Shown here: positions 1,078 to 60,086 of the stretch, piece after piece
Layout of the letters: each line of letters begins with the position of its first letter
Numbering within the stretch: position 1 is the stretch's first letter
Assembly (NCBI RefSeq): GCF_900104025.1
Contig: NZ_FNIQ01000001.1
Location: 806,001-870,000 of the forward strand
Origin: Geodermatophilus sp. DSM 45219
GTDB taxonomy: Bacteria > Actinomycetota > Actinomycetes > Mycobacteriales > Geodermatophilaceae
DNA: 64,000 nt
Direction: 5' to 3'
Program-made: the position numbers and the translations under genes
The notes under the pieces: generated by a model
Databases searched by the model: none
Told to the model about the DNA's origin: nothing
Seen by the model: only the letters and a program-made list of their open reading frames with translations

Positions 1078-2451
1078 TTACGAGGACACGCCCAGCGTCC
1101 GCTCCGCCTCGACCGTAGAGACCCGAGCCGTCGGCTGGTACTGGAAGCCGCCCTGCCGGCCGAAGGACTCCAGGCCGAAGTCACGCAGCGTGGCGATCAA
1201 GCGACGTGACCGGGCGCCGGACCCGGCCGTGTAGATCGGATAGGCGTGCTCGAGGACGTGCCCGCCCTCCAGGCGCAGGTCCCCGGTGAAGAGACCGTTG
1301 GCGGCCGTGTGCGCGCGGAAGTCCGCGGCCGCCCGGTCCACGGATGCGCCGACCATGTCCCCCAGCACCTCGACGGCGAGGTACTCGCGGCCCCCGACCG
1401 GTCCGTAGAAGTCCGAGTGCACCGTCAGCCGCTTCCAGGCCCCGTCGTGCGAGAAGTTGTAGAGGATCGGGTCGTCGAAGCCCCGGCGTCCCGCGAAGCT
1501 GAGGAAGAGGGTGACGAGGGTCACCGAGGGCAACGGCTGGTCGCCGGGCGCACCGATGAGGTCCAGCGCCTGGTCGACCGGGATGGTCGAGATGACGCGG
1601 GGAGCCACGAAGGTCTGCCCCGCCACGTCGAGGCGGAAGGCGCCGTCCTCCCTGTGGAGCCGGTCGGCCCGCATCCCGAGCTGGAACGTGGTCCCCCGTG
1701 ACTCCAGACGGTCCCTCGCCGGGGCGTAGAGGTGCGTGAAGCCCTCGCGGGGCCGGACCAGCTGCCGGTTGGTCTGCACGACGGGTTGCGCGGGTGCCGG
1801 CCGCCGCCCGGGCCGGCGGTCCCGCAGGGCCCGCAGGACCCGTCGCGAGAGGTTGCCGACCGACGCGTGCTCGGCGATCCACATCATCCGCTGCTCGGCG
1901 AACTCCAGTTCGACGTGTTCCGGCGCGACCCCGCAGAAACGCGCCATGTAGGTGCCCAGACCCGAGCGGTCCAGCAGCCGGGGCCCGATCCAGCGGCGGG
2001 CGAACTCCTGCGCGTTGCGCGGTCGCCGGTGGCGCACCCGCGCAGCCGCGGCGGACAGCAGCAGCAGGGCGCACTCACGAGGACCGGCGGCCAGGAAGTC
2101 GTCCCGGACCGAGAACGGGTACTCGGTCACCACGCCCTGCGGGTTCAGTCGACCCCAGGTCGGGTCGATGGGCAGGTACCGGTCGGTGATCTCGGGGAAG
2201 TGGCGGAGCAGGGGCGAATCGTCCTGGAAGACGAGGCTGCCCACGTCGAAGGTGTAGTCCCCGAGGTGGAAGTCCAGGTGGTTGCCACCGACACGGGGGT
2301 ACTCGTCGACGACGAGGACTCTCCTGCTGCCCTGGTCGAGCAGGACCGACGCGCAGACCAGTCCGCTGATCCCGGCCCCGAGCACGATCGCGTCGAACCG
2401 CGTGCCGCCGTCCCCTCCGGAGTCGGGGCCGGGCGTGGCCTGCGCCGTCAT
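1078..2451 (-). CDS. FAD-dependent oxidoreductase, UDP-galactopyranose mutase-like
   Basis: 457 aa flavoprotein. Residues 20-30 contain the dinucleotide-binding loop LGAGISG, followed by an acidic strand end (VVDEYPRVGGNHLD). A GGN segment followed by an acidic residue is typical of the UDP-galactopyranose mutase/protoporphyrinogen-oxidase superfamily. ATG start with a purine-rich AGGGGG upstream; the stop is TAA, rare in this GC-rich DNA. It sits between two glycosyltransferases and opposite a flippase, so a role in making or oxidising a sugar nucleotide for an exopolysaccharide is likely. True mutase activity is an inference; overall similarity to UGM looks distant. Confidence 0.75.
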   Translation of the reverse strand: MTAQATPGPDSGGDGGTRFDAIVLGAGISGLVCASVLLDQGSRRVLVVDEYPRVGGNHLDFHLGDYTFDVGSLVFQDDSPLLRHFPEITDRYLPIDPTWGRLNPQGVVTEYPFSVRDDFLAAGPRECALLLLSAAAARVRHRRPRNAQEFARRWIGPRLLDRSGLGTYMARFCGVAPEHVELEFAEQRMMWIAEHASVGNLSRRVLRALRDRRPGRRPAPAQPVVQTNRQLVRPREGFTHLYAPARDRLESRGTTFQLGMRADRLHREDGAFRLDVAGQTFVAPRVISTIPVDQALDLIGAPGDQPLPSVTLVTLFLSFAGRRGFDDPILYNFSHDGAWKRLTVHSDFYGPVGGREYLAVEVLGDMVGASVDRAAADFRAHTAANGLFTGDLRLEGGHVLEHAYPIYTAGSGARSRRLIATLRDFGLESFGRQGGFQYQPTARVSTVEAERTLGVSS

Positions 2452-13749: not shown

Positions 13750-16700
13750 TCACAGGGTCGATCCCTCGCCGGCGTCGGCGGCGACCGGGTCGCGGCCGTT
13801 CACCCCGACCCGCCCCGAGGGCACACCGGCGCGCTGCCGGTAGGCCTCCACGAAGTCGATGAGCTCGGGGCCGCGCGGGCGCCGTCCCGGCCGGATGTCG
13901 GCGGTGCTGACCTTGTCCTCCTGGATGTGGGTGTTCGGGTCGAGCACGATCCCGAGCAGGTCGTTGGCCCCGTCACCGGTCGAGAGACCGCTGTAGGACC
14001 AGTGGTAGGGCATCCCGATCTGGTGCACGACCTGGCCGTCGCGCAGCCTGATCGGCCGGATCCGCTCGGTGACGAGCACCTTCGCCTCGATCGCCGTCCG
14101 CGAGCTGACCAGCGTGGCGTACTCACCGTTGGTCAGGCCGCGCAGCTCGGCGAGCTCCGGGCTGACCTCGACGAAGAACTCCGGCTGGAGCTCGGACAGG
14201 TAGGGCAGCGTGCGGCTCATCCCGCCGGCCGTGTGGTGCTCGGTGAGCCGGTAGGTGGTCACCTGGAACGGGAAGACGTCGGACATCGGCGGGTTCTCCC
14301 GGTTCCACGGGCCCTCGATGCGCTCGAGCGTCGGGTTCGCCTGCTGCTTGTACAGCGCGTTCTCGACGACGGACTCCGCCGGCTCGTAGTGCGTCGGCAG
14401 CGGGCCGTCGACCACCCCGGCGGGCGCGAACAGCCACGCCTTGCCGTCGCCCTGCATGACGAACGGGTCCGCGCCTCCGATCGCGTCCTGCGCCCGGGCG
14501 CCCTCCGGCGGCACGTAGTCAGGACGCTTGGTCGCCTCGAAGTCGGGGTTGTCCAGGCCGGTCCAGCGACCGGCCTCCTCGTCCCACCAGACGTACTTCT
14601 TGCGCTCGCTCCACGGCTTGCCGTCCGGGTCGGCCGAGGCGCGGTTGTAGAGGATGCGCCGGTTGTACGGCCAGGCCCATCCCCACTCGGCGGCCACCGG
14701 GCCCTGCTCGCGGCCGGGCTTGCGCCGGGCGGCCTGGTTCACCTCGTCGGCGTAGACGCCGGAGTAGATCCAGCAGCCGCACGACGTCGAGCCGTTGTCC
14801 TTCAGCTCCAGGTAGCCGGACACCGCGCGCCCGTCCGGGCCGGTGCCGTTGATCTCCCGCAGGATCGCGTCCGCGCTCGGCTCCTGGTCGGGCCCGTGGG
14901 TCGGGTAGTCCCAGGTCAGGTCGAGCAGCGGGCGGTCCCGCGGGTCGGTGGAGCCGGCCAGCCGCTCGCGCAGGATGCGACCGAGGTGGAAGTAGAACCA
15001 CAGGTCGCTCGTGGCGTCACCCGGCGGCTCGACCGCCTTGTGCCGCCACTGCAGCAGCCGCTGCGTCTGGGTGAAGGTCCCCTCCTTCTCCGCGTGCGAG
15101 GCCGCCGGCACGAAGAAGACCTCGGTGCCGATCGTCTCGGGCGCCAGCTCCCCGGTCTCGATCTCCGGGGACTCCTTCCAGAAGGTCGCCGACTCGATCA
15201 TCTGCAGGTCGCGGACGACCAGCCAGTCCAGGTTGGCCAGCCCGAACCGGTTCATCCGCCCGTTGGGGTGGCCGACCGTCGGGTTCTCACCGACCAGGAA
15301 GTAGCCGGAGACCTTGCCCTTGATCATGTCGGCGATCGTGCGGTACGAGCTGTGGTCGCCGTCGATCTTCGGGAGGTAGTCGAACGCGAAGTCGTTCTCC
15401 GGCGTCGCGGCGTCCCCCCACCAGGCCTTGAGCAGGCTGGTCATGTAGGCGCGCTTGTTGCCCCAGAAGCCGCCCTTGCCGGCCGCGTCGGCGCAGTACT
15501 CGTCCAGCGACCCGTGCTGCAGCGCGTGCGGCATGGGCAGGTAGCCCGGCAGCAGGTTGTACAGCGTCGGGACGTCGGTCGAGCCCTGGATGCTCGCGTG
15601 CCCGCGCAGCGCGAGGATCCCGCCGCCGGGACGGCCGATGTTGCCCAGCAGCGTCTGCAGGATCGAGCAGGTGCGGATGTACTGCGCACCGACGCTGTGC
15701 TGCGTCCAGCCCACCGAGTACACCCACGCCGTCGTCCGCTCGCGGCCGCTGTTCTCGGTCACCCAGCGGGCGACCTGCAGGAACACCTCCGGCTCGATGC
15801 CGCAGACCTCGGCCACCATCTCCGGGGTGTAGCGGTCGAAGTGCCGCTTGAGGACCTGGAACACCGACCGCGGGTGCTGCAGCGTCTCGTCGCGCTTCGG
15901 CTTGGCCGCGATCGGCGGGCCGCCGCTGCCGGCCGCCTGGGCCTTGTCGGTCTTCTTGATCTCCGGGTCCTGCTCCTTGCGGTCCTGCTCCGCGGCCCCG
16001 GCCGGGTCGTCGGAGCCCGAGTGCGGCGGCTCCTCGGGCTCGTACTGCCAGCTGGCCTCGTCGTAGGTGTTGCTCTCCGGGTCGAAGCCGGAGAACAGGC
16101 CGTCGAGGTCCTCGGAGTCGACGAACTGCTCGCTCACCAGCGCCGCGGCGTTGGTGTAGGCGACGACGTACTCCTTGAAGTACAGGTCGTTGTCGAGCAC
16201 GTACCGGATGAGGCCGCCGAGGAAGGCGATGTCCGTGCCGATCCGCAGCGGGACGTGCAGGTCGGCGATCGCGCTGGTGCGGGTGAACCGCGGGTCGATG
16301 TGGATCACCTTGGCGCCGCGCGCCTTGGCCTCACTCACCCACTGGAAACCCACCGGGTGGCACTCGGCCATGTTCGAACCCTCGATGACGATGCAGTCGG
16401 AGTTCGCGAGGTCTTCCTGGAAGTTCGTGGCGCCGCCACGACCGAACGAGGCACCCAGACCGGGCACCGTGGCGGAGTGCTATATGCGGGCCTGGTTCTC
16501 GATCTGGATCGCGCCCAGGGCGCTGTAGAGCTTCTTCATGAGGTAGTTCTCCTCGTTGTCGAGGGTCGCCCCTCCGAGGCTCGCAATCCCCATGGTGCGG
16601 TTGACGCGCTTGCCGTCGTTCTCGTCCTGCCAGCCCTTGCGGCGGGCCTCGAGCACGCGGTCGGCGATCATCTCCATCGCCGTGTCCAGCTCGAGGTCCT

Positions 16701-17040
16701 CCCACTCGGTCCCGAAGGGGCGGCGGTACTTCACCGTCGTCACCCGGGTGGGGCTGGTGACCAGCTGCTTGCTGGCGCTGCCCTTGGGGCACAGCCGGCC
16801 GCGGCTGATCGGCGAGTCCGGGTCGCCCTCGATCTGGACGATCTGCTCGTCCTTGACGTAGATCCGCTGCCCACACCCCACCGCGCAGTACGGGCACACG
16901 CTCTGCACGACGCGGTCGGCGGTGGCCGTGCGGCTCACCACGTTCTCCGTCGCCTTGCTGCGCGCGGCCGCGCCGCGTCCGAGGGGGTCGGGGCCGGTCA
17001 GCTGCCGGAACACCGGCCACGCGTCGAGCCAGGTCTTCAC
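13750..17040 (-). CDS. fdhA: Formate dehydrogenase alpha subunit, selenoprotein with UAG-encoded Sec187
   Basis: Molybdopterin (Mo/W-bisMGD) oxidoreductase oxidising formate to CO2. 1096 aa if the in-frame TAG at 16480-16482 is read. Cys49/52/56/84 bind the 4Fe-4S cluster (CPYCAVGC...LCPKGS). The active-site block reads NQARI-[TAG]-HSATVPGLG; relatives have Cys or Sec at this spot. The frame continues without change through SNMAECHPVGFQW and KVIHIDPRFT to the TGA at 13750. No Tat signal is visible, suggesting a cytoplasmic site. A charged insertion of about 80 residues follows the first domain. Start is GTG 17040; an ATG at 17103 is possible. First gene of the operon. Read as two ORFs, it would be wrongly called broken. 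Confidence 0.93.
16433..16475 (-). promoter_or_regulatory. Predicted SECIS element of fdhA
   Basis: In the mRNA, GGUGCCC pairs with GGGUGCC (five Watson-Crick pairs and two G-U) to close the loop GGUCU, bases 16461-16457. A lower stem CCGCCAC/GUGGCGG (16475-16469 with 16439-16433) is perfect over 7 bp, leaving a 10-nt bulge on the 3' side. The loop starts 18 nt after the UAG. GGUCU is also the apical loop I recall for Escherichia coli fdhF. The element lies wholly within coding sequence, as bacterial SECIS elements do. Confidence 0.8.
16480..16482 (-). other. UAG selenocysteine codon in fdhA
   Basis: The codon is TAG on the coding strand, preceded by ATA (a very rare Ile codon at this GC content) and followed by CAC (the conserved His). 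In bacterial formate dehydrogenases this residue ligates the metal and is Sec (UGA) or Cys. UAG here, with a SECIS-like hairpin directly downstream, indicates recoding rather than termination. Confidence 0.88.
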
Positions 17041-17151
17041 ACCGGCAACTCTGCCACTCTCCTGCCGCTCCGGCTCCGTGGGACCCGCCGCAACCAGGGG
17101 CAACCGGCCGTTCCCGTTTCCGTTCCGTGACCTGACGGCCGTCGTCGCGCC

Positions 17152-48029: not shown

Positions 48030-49175
48030 CTACCTGCGCTGGTCGAACCGCCGGTCGAAGACCGACTCGGCGATCCGGTTGCGCAGCATCTCCAGCGATC
48101 CGCCGGCGATCATCCAGCCCCGCGTGCGGCGCAGGCAGTACTCGACCAGCGAGTCGGTGCTGTAGCCGAGCCCGCCCATCACCTGCAGCGCCTCGTTGGC
48201 GCACTCGAAGCCCGCGGTGTTGCAGGCCAGCTTGGCCACCGAGGTGTCGTAGGCCGAGGGCAGGCCGTCGTCGGCGTCGGTCGCGGCGCGGTACAGCAGC
48301 AGCTGTGCGGCGTCGAGCTTCACCGCCATGTCGGCGAACTTCCACTGCAGGCCCTGGAACTCGCACAGCGGCTTGCCGAACTGCTCGCGCACCAGCGCGT
48401 GGGCCCGGGCCTCCTCGTAGGCATACCGCCCCAGGGCGAGGGCGCGCGCGGAGTTGCCGATCCGCTCGACGTTGAAGCCGGAGATCTGCTTCTTGAAGCC
48501 GCCGGGGCCCAGCAGCACGTTCTCGGCCGGGATGCGGCAGTCCTCGAAGACCAGCTCGGACCACCGCTCGCCGCTCATGTACTCGTGCTCGGCGCCCACG
48601 GTGAACCCCGGCGTGCCCCGTTCCACGAGCACCGAGCCGATGTTCGACGTCCCGGGGCCGAACCGGACGTAGACCAGGTAGAGCGTCGCCTCGGGACTGT
48701 GCGTGCCGTAGATCTTCGTGCCGTTGACGACGTACTCGTCGCCGTCCCGGACGGCGGTGGTGCGCAGCTCGGTCACCGCCGAGCCGGCCTCCGACTCCGA
48801 CATGCCGAGCGAGATGAGCTTCTCGCCGGACAGCAGGCCGGGCAGGAACCGTTCCTTCTGCTCCGGGGTGGCGTACTCGGCGAGCGTGCGGATGGCGCCG
48901 AAACTGCCGGCCTGCACGATGTCGGCGGCCTTCGGCGAGGCGTAGGCCACCTCCTGGATCGCGATGACGGCGTCCATGAGCGAGGCGCCCTGCCCGCCGT
49001 CCTCCTCCGTGAGCGTGAGACCCAGCAGGTGGTTCTTGCCGAGCAGCCGGGCGACGTCCCACGGGTAGCCGGGTTGGTGGGCCAGCTCCACGGCCGAGCC
49101 CTTCAGCTCCGACCGGGCGAAGTCCCGGACCGCGGCGGCGAACGCCCGCTGGTCCTCATCGAGCCGGAAGTCCAT
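48030..49175 (-). CDS. Acyl-CoA dehydrogenase
   Basis: 381 aa FAD enzyme introducing a C2-C3 double bond. MDFRLDEDQRAFAAAVRDFA start, LTLTEEDGGQGASLMDAVIA, ISLGMSESEAGSAVTELRTT and LQVMGGLGYSTDSLVEYCLR are typical. At the usual GTxE end the protein reads IAGGSLEMLRNRIAE, so the common catalytic Glu is replaced by Gly; another residue would be the base. ATG 49175 avoids starting in the operator-like site. Ends with TAG. It is 103 bp upstream of the lyase gene. Confidence 0.9.
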   Translation of the reverse strand: MDFRLDEDQRAFAAAVRDFARSELKGSAVELAHQPGYPWDVARLLGKNHLLGLTLTEEDGGQGASLMDAVIAIQEVAYASPKAADIVQAGSFGAIRTLAEYATPEQKERFLPGLLSGEKLISLGMSESEAGSAVTELRTTAVRDGDEYVVNGTKIYGTHSPEATLYLVYVRFGPGTSNIGSVLVERGTPGFTVGAEHEYMSGERWSELVFEDCRIPAENVLLGPGGFKKQISGFNVERIGNSARALALGRYAYEEARAHALVREQFGKPLCEFQGLQWKFADMAVKLDAAQLLLYRAATDADDGLPSAYDTSVAKLACNTAGFECANEALQVMGGLGYSTDSLVEYCLRRTRGWMIAGGSLEMLRNRIAESVFDRRFDQRR

Positions 49176-51392: not shown

Positions 51393-52397
51393 TCAGGCGT
51401 CGGAGCCCTCGATCTCCTCGAAGACCGGCCGGTAGTCGTCGATCTCCGCGGCCAGCTCGTCGAGCTGGATCGGGTCGGTGACGTAGCCGTTCTCCTCCGC
51501 GAACTGCTGGAACTCCTCGGACTCCACGATCTGCTGGGAGACCTCGACGAGGGTGTCGCGGCACTCCTCGTCGAGGTTCGCCGGCGCGATCGTGTAGTAC
51601 GCGGCGGGCATGGAGGCGCCCTCGAACTGCTCGCCGATCAGCGGCAGGTCGGGCAGCAGCGGGTACTCCTGGTCGTAGAAGATGCCGAGCGGCCGCAGGT
51701 CGCCGGACTCCACGAAGCCCTGCATCGACGGGTAGAAGGTGCCGATCGACTCGATCTCCCCGGAGACCGCGGCCGTCAGCGCCTCGCCGCCGCCGCCGCT
51801 GAACGGCACACGGTTGAGCTCGATGCCCGACCGGATCTCCAGCAGCTTGGCGGCGGTGTCCGGCGTCCCCCCGGCACCGGAGGTGGCGTAGCCGATCCCG
51901 TTCGGGTCGGCCTCCGCCGCGGCGAGGAACTCCTCCAGCGTCTGCCACGGGGTGTCGGCGTTGACCGCCAGCACGACCGGGATGTCCCCGAGCTTGACCA
52001 GCGGCGTGTAGTCGTCGGTGGTCTGGAAGGGCAGGTCCGGGTTGAGCGCCGGCTGGTTGGCCAGCGCGGTGTGGTTGGACAGCCCGAGCGTGTAGCAGTC
52101 CGGCTGCGCGGTGACGATGCCGGTCGTGCCGATCGTCGCGGCACCACCCTCGCGGTTCTCCACGACCACGTCGACGCCGAGCTCCTCCGACAGCTGCGAG
52201 GCGAACTGCCGACCGATCGGGTCGGTCGAGCCACCGGTGCCGTAGGGGATGATGTAGGTGATCGGCCGGTTCGGCTGCCAGGCCCCGGCCTCGCCCGCGG
52301 CGGCGTCCGTCCCGCCGCTGCCACCGTCGCTCCCGCAGGCGACCAGGGCCAGGGCACTGGCAACCGCGAAGGCGCCGTGCAGGTGGTGCTTGTTCAT
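51393..52397 (-). CDS. tctC: Tripartite tricarboxylate transporter substrate-binding lipoprotein
   Basis: 334 aa Bug/TctC solute receptor. A lipoprotein signal MNKHHLHGAFAVASALALVA-C (lipobox LVAC) anchors it outside. ITYIIPYGTGGSTDPIGRQF is the canonical loop gripping the substrate carboxylates, and GIGYATSGAGGTPDTAA follows. Two consecutive ATGs; the second is better spaced from GAGGAG. First transporter gene after the UGSC selenoprotein. Binding pocket residues do not identify the ligand. Confidence 0.93.
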   Translation of the reverse strand: MNKHHLHGAFAVASALALVACGSDGGSGGTDAAAGEAGAWQPNRPITYIIPYGTGGSTDPIGRQFASQLSEELGVDVVVENREGGAATIGTTGIVTAQPDCYTLGLSNHTALANQPALNPDLPFQTTDDYTPLVKLGDIPVVLAVNADTPWQTLEEFLAAAEADPNGIGYATSGAGGTPDTAAKLLEIRSGIELNRVPFSGGGGEALTAAVSGEIESIGTFYPSMQGFVESGDLRPLGIFYDQEYPLLPDLPLIGEQFEGASMPAAYYTIAPANLDEECRDTLVEVSQQIVESEEFQQFAEENGYVTDPIQLDELAAEIDDYRPVFEEIEGSDA

Positions 52398-52467
52398 CAT
52401 CGATCTCCTCGTCGTCGAGTGGAACGGTGTGCTGGGGGGTCCGGGACGGCCGGCTCGGCCGGGAGGG

Positions 52468-54081
52468 TCAGCCACCGGGGGCCCCGCGGGCCGGCGGGCG
52501 GACGTCGACCGTGACGGCCTCGGTGGTGCCGAAGGTCGGCACGAGCACCGAGTGCTTGCCGGGCCCGCCGGCCACCACGACCAGCAGGTTCTCCGGGCCG
52601 TCGAGCATCGGGACGACGCCGTCGCCCGGGACGTCCGCGAAGACGTGCGGCGCGGTGCGCCGGTAGCGGTCGAGGTTGCCCTCCGAGACCCCCGCGAGGC
52701 TCACCTGCGCCTGCGGGTGGGCGTGCACCGCCTCCTGGATCCGCCGCCGGTCGTAGCCCTCGCGGGCCAGCACCTCGGCGTGCTCCGGGCCGAGCACCAG
52801 CAGCACCTGCCCGCGCAGGTACAGGTTGTTGCTGCCGAGGCTGGCCACGGTGCCGGCGATGGTGGTGAGGATCCCGGCGGCGTCGGTGCTGCCGTGGTCG
52901 TTGACGTTGTGCGGCCCCTCGCCGCCCAGGACGGTCACCGCGCCCGCCGGCCCGCCGCCGCGCGCCTGGTGGAAGGTCTCGAAGGGGGACGCGGCGGCGT
53001 TCTCCGCGATGCAGTAGGCGTACTTGCCCGGCGTGCCGTGGGTGGCGCGGTCGGTCTCCCCGGGCCGGGCCTCGCCGACGTTCTGCAGGACCAGCCGCAG
53101 GGCGCGGCCGACCCCGGCGTTGGCCCGGTTGCCCTGCCCGAACACGTTGGGGCCCCCGTTGAAGCCGAGCTCGGCGGCCACCGGTCCGTGCACGACGACC
53201 AGCGGGGTCACCGGGTGCGTGGTCGTGGTGAGCGCCTGCAGGTTGAACCGGGGTTCCAGCACCGCCTGCACCGCGGCGACGACGACCGGCAGGAGCTCGG
53301 GCGGGCACCCGGCCATGACGGCGTTCGCCGCCACCGCGGCGACCGTCGCGCCGCGGTCGGACGGCGGCACCAGGCCGAGCACCTCGCCGGCGTCGCGACC
53401 GGTGGCGGCGACCGCACGGGCCACCAGCTCCTCGGTCGGCGGCACCAGCGGCAGCCCGTCGCTCCAGCGCCGTCCCTCGGCGAAGGCGAGGAACCCCAGC
53501 ACGTCGCACGGGGCGTCGTGCACCGTCGCGGTCGGCGCGGTCGTCACCTCCGCGGGGGTGGACAGCAGCGCCTCGGCCACCCGGTCCACCGCCGCGGCCA
53601 GGGCGTCGTCGAGCTGCCCGGGCTCCACCCCGCCGATCGGGTGCGGGATGGTCGCCACCGCGAGCGACTCCAGCCCCTCCTGGCGCGCGACGGCGCGCGC
53701 GAGGGGCAGGAACGAGTCGGTGGCGATCATGACCGTCGGGATCCCTCGCCGTTCCAGCTCAGCGGAGTCGTGGACACTCCACGACGTGCAGGAGCCCTAG
53801 TCACCGACGCCCACGATCGCGGCGTCGAAGTTGCGGAACCGGTCGAGGACCTCGGCCTCGAACGGACGCGAGGAGTTGGGCTTCTCCGCCGCCACCGGCG
53901 GCTGCGCGCCGAACCGGTCGGCCAGGTGGCGGCCGAGCTGCCCGACGACGTGCGCCGCGTTGGGCTTGCCGTTGTCGAGGACGGCGATCCGCGCCCCGGC
54001 CAGCGAGGACACCCGCGGCGACGTGGTGAGCCGCTGGGTCGGGGGCTCGGTCCCCGACGGGTCGGTGATCCGGACGTCCAT
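52468..54081 (-). CDS. UGSC-motif selenoprotein with UAG-encoded Sec95, fused to a C-terminal domain
   Basis: 537 aa when the in-frame TAG at 53797-53799 is read. The N-terminal domain runs ARIAVLDNGKPNAAHVV, FDAAIVGVGD-[TAG]-GSCTSWSVHD, then GIPTVMIATDSF: exactly the U-G-S-C motif of the family NCBI calls UGSC family (seleno)protein. From about residue 200 a second domain begins (GRRWSDGLPLVPPTEELV, NAVMAGCPPELLPVV), often found with this family. ATG 54081 follows GGAGG. Redox or thiol chemistry at Sec95/Cys98 is inferred. First gene of the transporter operon; divergent from GntR. Read as two ORFs it looks broken. Confidence 0.9.
53756..53796 (-). promoter_or_regulatory. Predicted SECIS element of the UGSC gene
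   Basis: In the mRNA GUCGUGG (53785-53779) pairs perfectly with CCACGAC (53773-53767), an eighth A-U pair being possible, to close the loop AGUGU at 53778-53774. A lower helix GGCUC/GAGCU (53796-53792 with 53760-53756, one G-U) follows a six-by-six internal loop. The loop begins 18 nt after the UAG, the same distance as in fdhA. Confidence 0.75.
53797..53799 (-). other. UAG selenocysteine codon in the UGSC gene
   Basis: Coding-strand GAC-TAG-GGC-TCC-TGC gives D-U-G-S-C. The frame on both sides is the same, and the downstream 430 codons have normal usage. No base change other than TAG is needed to restore the known motif (Cys or Sec at this position), so Sec insertion is the simplest reading. 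Confidence 0.87.
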
Positions 54082-54530: not shown

Positions 54531-55202
54531 ATGACCGAGGCCCAGAGCTCCCAGGGCGGGGCGGCGCAGGGGCTCACCGGCCCCCCGCTCAGCAAGACCG
54601 AGTACGTGCTCCAGCGGCTGCGCGAGGACATCGCCAGCGGCGTGGTCGTGCCCGGGACGTCACTGCGCCAGAGCGAGATCGCCGCCCGGTACGGCGTCAG
54701 CGCCACCCCCGTCCGCGAGGCGCTGCGCCTGCTCGAGGCCGGCGGGAGCATCAGCTATGCCCCGCACCGGGGGGCCACGGTCCGCGAGCTGTCGCCGGAG
54801 CGGGTGCGCGACGTCTACCTGCTGCGCGCCGAGATCGAGGGCCTGGCCACCGCGGTGGCCTGCGAGCGGATGACCGACGAGCAGTTCGCCAGGATCGAGG
54901 CGGTCCACGAGGAGATCCGTGCGCACCGCGGAGGGGACGGCGAGGAGCTCGCCGTCCTGAACCGCCGGCTGCACTTCACGATCTACCACGCCGGGTCCGA
55001 GCTGATCGCCTCGCACGCGTCCAGCCTGTGGTCGCTGTTCCCGCCCCGGGTCACCATCTGGGCCGTGCCGGACGCCGCGGCGGCCCTGGCGGCCGACCAC
55101 GACGGGATCATCGAGGCGCTGCGCGCCCGCGACGCGAAGCTGGCGCAGAACCGCGCGCGTGACCACGTGCTGCACGCCGCCGACCTGCGCGAGCACCTGT
55201 GA
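54531..55202 (+). CDS. GntR-family regulator (FCD subfamily)
   Basis: 223 aa. The winged helix-turn-helix spans about residues 20-90: YVLQRLREDIASGVVVPGTS, LRQSEIAARYGVSATPVREA, RLLEAGG. The C-terminal FCD ligand domain follows with DVYLLRAEIEGLATAVA and LNRRLHFTIYHA, where Asp/His metal ligands sit; FCD proteins sense organic acids. ATG 54531 is taken as start. Divergent from the UGSC-transporter operon, which it most probably controls; stop overlaps an alternative start of the next small gene. Confidence 0.92.
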   Translation: MTEAQSSQGGAAQGLTGPPLSKTEYVLQRLREDIASGVVVPGTSLRQSEIAARYGVSATPVREALRLLEAGGSISYAPHRGATVRELSPERVRDVYLLRAEIEGLATAVACERMTDEQFARIEAVHEEIRAHRGGDGEELAVLNRRLHFTIYHAGSELIASHASSLWSLFPPRVTIWAVPDAAAALAADHDGIIEALRARDAKLAQNRARDHVLHAADLREHL

Positions 55203-55234: not shown

Positions 55235-55474
55235 ATGTCGGCTCAGGCCGAGGCCGAGCAGGAACTGAACGCCATGCTCGACGAGGGCGTGACCGCGCAG
55301 CTGGTCGACGTCGACGCGGGCGTGTACGAGCTGCGGCTGGCGATGGACGAGAGCGCGTGCGCCGACTGCCTGGTGCCCGACCCCACGCTGGTCTCGATCG
55401 CGACCGACGCGCTCCAGCGGCGCGGGGTGCCGGTCGCCTCGATGTCGGTGCTCCGCCCCGCCGCGCACGCCTGA
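55235..55474 (+). CDS. Small 79-aa hypothetical protein with a CADC pair
   Basis: 79 aa, acidic, with two closely spaced cysteines (SACADCLVPDP) that could bind metal or form a redox pair. ATG 55235 after AGGAGG; a GTG at 55199 overlaps the GntR stop. Same strand and probably same transcript as GntR. The fold of about beta-beta-alpha resembles small NifU-type pieces, but no family is recognised. Confidence 0.65.
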   Translation: MSAQAEAEQELNAMLDEGVTAQLVDVDAGVYELRLAMDESACADCLVPDPTLVSIATDALQRRGVPVASMSVLRPAAHA

Positions 55475-58402: not shown

Positions 58403-59178
58403 CGGGCCCGCCACTGCGGCGCCCGCTTCTCGGCGAAGGCCCGCACGCCCTCGACCCGGTCCTCGCTGGAGTACGGGTCGGGCCGGACGTCGAGCCGGAG
58501 GGCGGCGGCCGGTGCCTGGTGCAGGCCCGCCTGGATGACCGCCTTGTACCGGCGGATGGTCAACGGGGCGTTGGCCAGGAGCATGCGCACGTACTCCTCG
58601 GCGGTGGCCGCGAGCTCGGCTGCGGGCACCACCCGGTTGACCAGGCCCCACCGTTCGGCCTCGTGGGCGGAGACCGTGCGGCCGCTGTAGAGCATGTCGT
58701 AGGCGATCCCCAGCGGGACCAGCCGCGGCAGCATGACCGAGCCGAAGTTCGCGCCCATCCCGCGCAGCGCCTCGGGGAGGGCCAGCTGTGCGTGCTCGGC
58801 GGCCAGCCGGACGTCGCAGGCCATCGCCAGCTCCAGCCCGCCCCCCATGGCCCAGCCGTTGAGCGCGGCGACGGTGGGCTTGCGGCACTCGTGGACGACC
58901 TCGAACGGGTTGCGCTGCAGCTGCCGCATGGGGGACGGCGGAGCCGCGCCGGCGGCGTCGCGGCCGGCCAGCTCCTTGAGGTCCCGCCCGGCGGAGAAGG
59001 CCTGGTCGCCGGCGCCGGTGACCAGCACCGCCCACACGTCGTCGTCGGCGTCGAACCGGACGAAGGTCTCGACCAGGCCGGCCATGACCTCCGCGCCGAG
59101 CGCGTTGCGCCGCTCCGGCCGGTCGATCGTCACGTAGCCCACGCGGTCGCGGACCTCGACCCGCAGCCCCTCGGTCAC
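58399..59178 (-). CDS. Enoyl-CoA hydratase/isomerase family protein
   Basis: 259 aa crotonase. IDRPERRNALGAEVMAGLVE, FSAGRDLKELAG and AALNGWAMGGGLELAMACDV give the CoA pocket and oxyanion hole; LPEALRGMGANFGSVMLPRL lies at the catalytic helix. A Glu-rich pair typical of true hydratases is not obvious. GTG start in overlap with the DUF6282 gene. Acts on an acyl-CoA made by the ligase or CoA-transferases. Confidence 0.88.
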   Translation of the reverse strand: MTEGLRVEVRDRVGYVTIDRPERRNALGAEVMAGLVETFVRFDADDDVWAVLVTGAGDQAFSAGRDLKELAGRDAAGAAPPSPMRQLQRNPFEVVHECRKPTVAALNGWAMGGGLELAMACDVRLAAEHAQLALPEALRGMGANFGSVMLPRLVPLGIAYDMLYSGRTVSAHEAERWGLVNRVVPAAELAATAEEYVRMLLANAPLTIRRYKAVIQAGLHQAPAAALRLDVRPDPYSSEDRVEGVRAFAEKRAPQWRAR

Positions 59179-60086
59179 GTGCCCGCCTCCGCCGCCCGGG
59201 CCGGCGCGTCCAGGGCCAGGGCCTCGCTGGGGTTGTGGACGGTCATCGCCTCGATGTCGGCCTGGCTGAACCCGCGGTCCCGCATCGCGTCGACGTACTG
59301 CTGCAGGCCGACCACCGGCGAGACGTTGTGCGCCTGGCCGAAGTCGGTGGCCATGACGGTGCTGTCGACGCCGACCGTGCGGATCGCCTCGGCGATGCTC
59401 TGCAGCGGCACCTCGTCGCTGGTGGGCAGGGTGACCGCGAAGACCCGCTCGAACCAGACGCCCCCGAGCCCGGCCAGCTCCAGCTGGTCGTCGAGGCCCA
59501 GGCCGACGCAGGAGTGCTCCGGGTGGGTGACCAGCACGTTCGGCACGCCGCGCCGGCGGGCCTCGGGCACCACCTGCATGATCTCGGCCGGCCCGATGTG
59601 CCCGGTCGCCAGCGTGGCGCCGGCCGCGGCGACGAGGTCGAGCACGCGGCAGACGTCGGCGGTGGGGCGCCCCTCGTCGTCGAGCACGCTCAGGCCCGGC
59701 CCCTCGATCCTGCCCAGCCGCTGCAGGTTGCCGCTGGTGATGCCCTTCTCCGCCGCGTGCCGGACCTGGTTGGCCGCGGTGATCGTCGGCATCCAGATGA
59801 CCCGGCCGCCGAGCCGGAGCGCGGTGTCCACCGCGTGCGGGTTGATGCCGCCGGTGGCCTGCACGTTGAGCACCGCCCCGCCGAGGATCTGCGCGTCCAC
59901 GGCGTGCTCCTGGGCCATCGTGGCCCGCGCCGCGGTGACCGTGTGGTGGCTCTTGAGCACCACCGCGCGGTAGCCGGCCGCGTCGACCGCGGCGGCCAGC
60001 TGCGAGTCGGTCATCAACCGCGGGATCACGTCGGGCGCCGTGTGCACGTGGGTGTCCACGAGCCCGGTCGGCAGCCTCCGGTTCAT
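59175..60086 (-). CDS. DUF6282 family protein (amidohydrolase-like)
   Basis: 303 aa TIM-barrel hydrolase resembling metal-dependent amidohydrolases. Ligand blocks: VDTHVHTAPDVIPR (HxH), VVLKSHHTVTAARA, ATGHIGPAEI, VTHPEHSCVGLG and ATDFGQAHNVSP (final Asp). All His and Asp are kept. ATG start, 25 bp after the hydroxyacid dehydrogenase stop. It may hydrolyse a lactone or lactam related to the acid substrate. Confidence 0.78.
   Translation of the reverse strand: MNRRLPTGLVDTHVHTAPDVIPRLMTDSQLAAAVDAAGYRAVVLKSHHTVTAARATMAQEHAVDAQILGGAVLNVQATGGINPHAVDTALRLGGRVIWMPTITAANQVRHAAEKGITSGNLQRLGRIEGPGLSVLDDEGRPTADVCRVLDLVAAAGATLATGHIGPAEIMQVVPEARRRGVPNVLVTHPEHSCVGLGLDDQLELAGLGGVWFERVFAVTLPTSDEVPLQSIAEAIRTVGVDSTVMATDFGQAHNVSPVVGLQQYVDAMRDRGFSQADIEAMTVHNPSEALALDAPARAAEAGT

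Follow-up and report, generated by a model that had tools for sequence, protein, structure and literature searches.

The SECIS of the E. coli fdhF gene is a hairpin that lies inside the coding region just past the selenocysteine (Sec) codon, with G23 and U24 in its loop and a bulged U17. A second point of reference is the UAG-programmed selenoprotein synthesis that Mukai et al. reportedly showed in Geodermatophilus and Blastococcus in 2016 (Angew. Chem.).

According to excerpts of a later article, the reported elements include (i) a tRNA-Sec with the anticodon CUA, (ii) formate dehydrogenase, and (iii) UGSC-motif selenoproteins, all credited to Mukai et al. 2016; the same excerpts assign the three genomes found with CUA tRNA-Sec to the family Geodermatophilaceae and mention a UAG-encoded AhpC in Blastococcus saxobsidens (PMC5330540). 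A 2013 paper on pyrrolysine, in its accessible part, lists a tRNA hit for Geodermatophilus obscurus with the remark 'No UAG-anticodon' (PMC3639795). The UGSC family was described in 2008, in the portion available, as fused to an unknown domain under the name 'UGSC/Unknown_1' (PMC2398784), and it is included in the lists of reviews from 2022 and 2026, in whose accessible parts the terms Geodermatophil- and Blastococcus are absent (PMC9312934, PMC13188914).

The locus described here lies in a 64-kb stretch of Geodermatophilus DNA, analysed as a whole and referred to as the window. An in-frame TAG in a UGSC-family gene would, with a probability of roughly 0.95 as judged from sequence, be read as Sec by the genome's own machinery by means of a CUA tRNA-Sec. 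The case is real but not new as a kind, and the earlier note on this DNA overstated its novelty, since publications of 2016-2017 already described UAG-encoded Sec in Geodermatophilaceae, UGSC proteins included.

Reading frame and conservation around the TAG codon

The UGSC gene (52468..54081, minus strand) comprises a 537-codon frame, read from 54081 to 52468, whose sole interruption is the TAG at 53799-53797 within the motif D-[TAG]-G-S-C. The plus strand reads CTA at 53797-53799, so that the TAG belongs to the minus strand; the earlier note had placed the codon and its motif correctly, leaving the strand unstated. The frame closes with a TGA at 52470-52468, 442 codons past the TAG, and would encode 537 aa if the TAG is counted as one residue, which fits the '430 codons' and '537 aa' given before. 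The start at ATG 54081 is preceded by a GGAGGA 10 bases upstream, and the alignment of the relatives begins near it. The predicted Sec codon (53797..53799, minus strand) is residue 95 from this ATG and residue 115 of P0001, the 557-residue translation from ATG 54141 in which the TAG was likewise taken as one residue. The UGSC domain PF24696 extends over residues 25-192 of P0001 (53566..54069, minus strand; 158.3 bits, gathering threshold 25), with a predicted α/β/α fold, whereas the NCBIfam UGSC equivalog NF041046 scores 120.7 bits, slightly under its cut-off of 125, so that the protein is filed under PF24696 and not under the equivalog.

The division made by gene finders, into a 94-aa N-terminal peptide ending at the TAG and a 420-aa protein from ATG 53730, is a very improbable account of the locus. 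It agrees with the 'headless' relatives in the protein database, since all 17 of the 17 aligned to P0001 start after the stop, and with the occurrence of UGSC and its partner domain as separate genes in some relatives; in the latter, however, the split falls between the UGSC and the partner domain and not at the Sec codon, and a start at 53730 would halve the UGSC domain. The 22 codons between the TAG and the next ATG were compared as well: with the close relatives L148, L149 and L150, this stretch displays 7, 8 and 5 synonymous changes and 0 non-synonymous ones, and with the more distant L238 and L239, 5 and 7 synonymous and 1 and 3 non-synonymous changes. A restart at the next ATG would leave these codons untranslated, yet they are conserved as protein, which argues against two separate ORFs, an option that the earlier note had raised against its own reading. 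The relatives that start after the stop are beheaded gene calls. The crossing of the TAG by PF24696 and the 22 codons past it without non-synonymous change in three relatives point to more than chance, in agreement with a frame that is translated through the TAG.

UAG is a rare stop in the window: among 41 ORFs selected by composition, 38 end with TGA, one with TAA, and two with TAG, one of the latter two being the Sec codon of a formate dehydrogenase gene and the other ending at 48030. A codon so rarely employed as a stop would be a cheap one to reuse. Since UAG ends at least one apparent gene, that at 48030, some of the UGSC product may stop at codon 114.

In the rows read, the homologue column at the TAG discloses only Sec-type stops and Cys, apart from a single off-target row. 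In the Geodermatophilaceae loci read base by base, the codon is TAG in 37 rows and TGC or TGT in 15, with one row off target, these being counts of rows and not of genes, since a few loci overlap. Among named genomes, the 91 rows from 79 loci, drawn from the best 80 of 535 stretches, comprise 88 TGA, two TGT (Natronomonas), and one TAG, the latter from Geodermatophilus sp. DF01-2 (86%). The expectation that the column would hold U or C was thus borne out, as TAG or Cys inside the family and, beyond it, as TGA or Cys. The closest non-family relatives are MAGs labelled Pseudonocardiaceae (72%) and Nitriliruptorales (67%), both with the same hairpin and with a TGA that nearly identical bases follow. 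Across 112 Geodermatophilaceae genomes, 54 display UGSC-domain matches; by hand count, 72 of the 94 matches listed contain one internal TAG, its position being checked only in the loci read base by base, and the other 22 show no stop, TGA or TAA occurring in none. All 23 full-length proteins that were aligned share the segment D-U-G-S-C, and some Cys rows of Geodermatophilaceae carry C-A-G-C instead of U/C-G-S-C.

Downstream hairpin, tRNA-Sec and further predicted UAG targets

Immediately downstream of the TAG, a SECIS-like hairpin of eight pairs is predicted at 53767..53785 on the minus strand and backed by covariation; counting the T of TAG as base 1, bases 15-22 pair with 26-33 around the loop G23-U24-G25. 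The six inner pairs and the GU of the loop occur together in 18/18 distinct Geodermatophilaceae TAG sequences versus 0/15 Cys rows, one of which (L221) preserves the six pairs with a different loop and no GU. Under a null of synonymous codons (2000 draws), the full element arises in 0.6% of cases on average and in 11% at most. Among the distinct Sec-type sequences of the named loci (n = 69, including the TAG of DF01-2), the GU is found in 68 and all six pairs in 58. Over 85 UGSC sequences, 95.3% of cells are paired, against at most 50.3% when the pairing is slid, and both sides have changed in 45 cells, against 7.1 in shuffles. The 31 UAG sequences, 18 from UGSC and 13 from formate dehydrogenase genes, are 92.7% paired with 55 double-changed cells versus 18.2; on this set, two of the five covariation measures are no higher than in the shuffles, namely the pairs with a double change and the further pair types.

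A covariance model was built from these 31 sequences, two gene families that include the two sites of the window, and run on the host genome (G000; 4.97 Mb, 12 contigs, 99.99% complete). It returns three strong matches of 55.0, 51.9 and 50.7 bits, the next one, at 22.7, lying 28 bits lower: (i) the formate dehydrogenase gene (55 bits), (ii) the UGSC gene of the window (53761-53799, 51.9 bits), and (iii) a second UGSC gene at C11:343192-343230. Five of nine weaker matches inspected start with TAG, in frames that look non-coding by base composition. No further kind of UAG target was found in the genome by this hairpin model, which is based on UGSC and formate dehydrogenase and could miss other kinds of selenoproteins.

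The formate dehydrogenase alpha gene, on the minus strand at 13750..17103 with a putative start codon, carries its in-frame TAG at 16480-16482 in the context ENQARI-[TAG]-HSATVPGLG, the codon and its SECIS-like hairpin together spanning 16444..16482; the other TAG to which the earlier note alludes is likewise real. This hairpin was read in 30 loci, and 11 of its 13 distinct sequences show all eight pairs. Of the 140 formate dehydrogenase matches listed, a hand count gives 118 with exactly one TAG; the others are seven close fragments off the site and 15 distant, stop-free matches of 31-34% identity.

Also by hand count, 17 Geodermatophilaceae genomes (e.g. G004, G005, G007, G008 and G009) have another UAG formate dehydrogenase copy, which shares 69-85% identity with that of the window. 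In one genome, G079, both formate dehydrogenase copies (L368 on C4 and L369 on C12) have lost the segment with the Sec codon and hairpin, with a change of frame and a common right-hand end point, either a real deletion or an assembly fault at the hairpin. The second UAG UGSC gene of the host genome (L217:1486-2004, minus strand, on C11) overlaps by four bases a 557-aa ORF that contains a CPTC segment and a partner domain 41% identical to that of P0001; the CPTC segment has a thioredoxin-like Pfam match of 19.3 bits, below the cut-off of 27.

No tRNA genes were found within the window. In the whole genome there is a single clear tRNA-Sec, at C8:292436-292527, with the anticodon CUA and a score of 65.1 bits (cut-off 47). 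Another match, at 47.5 bits, barely exceeds the cut-off and is classed by ARAGORN as a tRNA-Ser; a further four do not reach the cut-off. Genes for SelD (386.3 bits), SelA (408.9 bits) and SelB (288.4 bits), all above their cut-offs, are located within about 5 kb of the tRNA-Sec. ARAGORN gives the CUA tRNA-Sec (L001:1501-1596) the label tRNA-Pyl, which is likely to cause misannotation.

That label speaks for a decoding of UAG as pyrrolysine or by a different amber suppressor tRNA, a reading of scant probability given that the same tRNA scores as tRNA-Sec and that the relatives read have a Sec-type stop or Cys in the column. Likewise, the best score of the pyrrolysyl-tRNA synthetase model PylS in the genome is 24.1 bits versus a cut-off of 178.15, and the model also matches 13 of 14 control genomes, in one of them above the cut-off. 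The weakest alternative, a nonsense mutation or sequencing error that broke a former Cys or UGA-Sec gene, has in its favour a frame formally interrupted by a stop and is already contradicted by the recurrence of one internal TAG among the UGSC and formate dehydrogenase matches listed, by the TAG at the same column in 37 rows, by a CUA tRNA that matches the codon, and by the unchanged 22 codons.

The location of the TAG at a Sec/Cys column, the CUA tRNA-Sec gene, and the conserved predicted hairpin just downstream together make it likely that UAG is read as Sec, in support of the UGSC-motif selenoprotein proposed in the earlier note. SelA and SelD would make Sec-tRNA(CUA) from Ser-tRNA, and SelB, bound to the hairpin, would deliver the Sec-tRNA(CUA) to a ribosome that pauses at UAG, where it would compete with release factor 1. 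In the resulting 537-aa protein, Sec and the Cys three residues on (U-G-S-C) would act as a redox pair where a helix begins.

Domain organization and neighbourhood of the UGSC protein

The UGSC domain is followed by a C-terminal partner domain (residues 205-557 of P0001; 52471..53529, minus strand), for which no Pfam or NCBIfam family was found above cut-off and which some relatives encode as a gene of its own; the Natronomonas genes for UGSC and partner domain, for example, are separate and adjacent. The predicted structure of P0001, based on 23 sequences, has a pLDDT of 89.5 and a pTM of 0.89, and in this model Sec115 is found at the junction of a strand and a helix, and Cys118 one turn further. 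A thioredoxin-like fold was put forward as likely for UGSC in 2008, in the part of the source available (PMC2398784). The modelled UGSC half is not obviously a thioredoxin fold, and the solved structures closest to it have other α/β/α folds, such as those of receiver domains and flavodoxins. The Sec region also has weak profile matches to the selenoprotein B family of glycine/betaine/sarcosine/D-proline reductases, TIGR01917 (22.2 bits, cut-off 602.2) and TIGR01918 (15.5 bits, cut-off 65.45), a faint likeness far under the family cut-offs.

The overlap of the second UGSC gene with a gene that carries the same partner domain behind a CPTC segment points to a thiol/selenol redox role, and the fused protein is likely a thiol/selenol redox enzyme. 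A listed ORF for a TctC-family solute-binding protein (51393..52475, minus strand) shares 8 bases with the end of the UGSC gene, and the two are likely on one transcript; a GntR/FCD regulator (54531..55202, plus strand) is divergent from the UGSC gene. As a guess, these two neighbours would fit the uptake and turnover of a small acid. Further along are a 79-aa ORF with a CxxC pair and no Pfam family (55235..55474, plus strand) and a DUF6282 family protein (59175-60086, minus strand, 208.6 bits).

UAG and UGA types in the family, and comparison with known systems

Matches to tRNA-Sec are present in 108 of 112 Geodermatophilaceae genomes, and the 110 loci read comprise 102 with CUA and eight with UCA. 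The CUA type occurs in 101 of the 108 genomes, G037 having two, while seven genomes from three genera (g5, g6 and g7) have UCA only; both types coexist in G059, a Geodermatophilus. At the level of the order (397 genomes), 75/75 family members drawn, none of them from g5-g7, show the CUA pattern, versus 1/322 others; the UCA pattern is found in 194 of the 322 non-family genomes, a few being visibly other tRNAs, and in two of the 75 family members, one of which is G059 and the other a tRNA-Gly-like match. The single CUA case outside the family, L324 (G230:C194), is a 4.8-kb contig with a CUA tRNA-Sec and a partial selA, and is likely contamination, since G230, which belongs to another family, has its own UCA tRNA-Sec and selA.

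A SelA tree was computed from 31 rows, comprising 27 of 30 loci, G000, G059 and two rows of G230; one row, G067, in which no tRNA-Sec was found, took its label from the genus. All 22 CUA rows fall into a single clade with a support of 100/100; when G230:C119, from another family, serves as the only outgroup row, this clade has g5 as its sister, whereas g6 and g7 group with the outgroup. This topology, from one gene and with one long outgroup branch, suggests a single switch from UGA to UAG.

The second tRNA-Sec of G059 (L218, G059:C17:1-12000, at 1173-1263, minus strand) has the anticodon UCA, is divergent, and scores 81.8 bits, the native CUA copy being on C11. It lies on the margin of a region whose GC content is about 60%, and matches to transposases of IS30 and IS110 occur within 8 kb. 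For selA there is one match in this genome, which may read both UAG and UGA as Sec. A complete history can be sketched, tentatively and with more doubt than confidence: a single family-wide switch from UGA to UAG, in which the anticodon arm of tRNA-Sec and every Sec codon changed while SelA, SelB, SelD and the hairpins were kept, the three UGA-type genera being ancestral and G059 having regained a UCA tRNA-Sec on a low-GC mobile region and perhaps reading two stops.

A stop other than UGA that is read as Sec shows that Sec can pass to another codon with the remainder of its system left in place, and the presence of CUA and UCA types in one family, along with nearest outside relatives that have TGA and the same hairpin, makes the order of the codon switch testable. 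The present analysis adds to the 2016 findings a map of tRNA-Sec types across the family, the three UGA-type genera, the SelA tree, and the Geodermatophilus genome with both types; in open literature listings, no title or abstract was found on UGA-type genera or a two-tRNA genome in Geodermatophilaceae. On the practical side, these proteins are beheaded in gene calling, and their tRNA is attributed by ARAGORN to pyrrolysine.

Compared to the described UAG-Sec system of Geodermatophilaceae, the locus shares the CUA tRNA-Sec, UAG at the Sec site, both target types (formate dehydrogenase and UGSC proteins) and, very likely, the bacterial family. The gene of the window fuses the UGSC domain to a partner domain of 350 aa, a form that may or may not be among those described in 2016. 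A UAG-encoded AhpC is on record for B. saxobsidens, whereas here the hairpin model, restricted to UGSC and formate dehydrogenase, gave no further target kind. With the E. coli fdhF SECIS, the UGSC hairpin has in common its position in the coding region at the same distance and the G23 and U24 of the loop; in contrast, its loop comprises three bases and there is no bulged U17, base 17 being a C paired with G31 in 85/85 UGSC rows, while the formate dehydrogenase hairpin has U at 17. Finally, the protein resembles the UGSC family (PF24696 / NF041046) in its domain, U-G-S-C motif and UxxC pair, a fusion with an unknown domain being also represented by 'UGSC/Unknown_1' in the available part of PMC2398784, and departs from it in a Sec codon that is UAG and not UGA.
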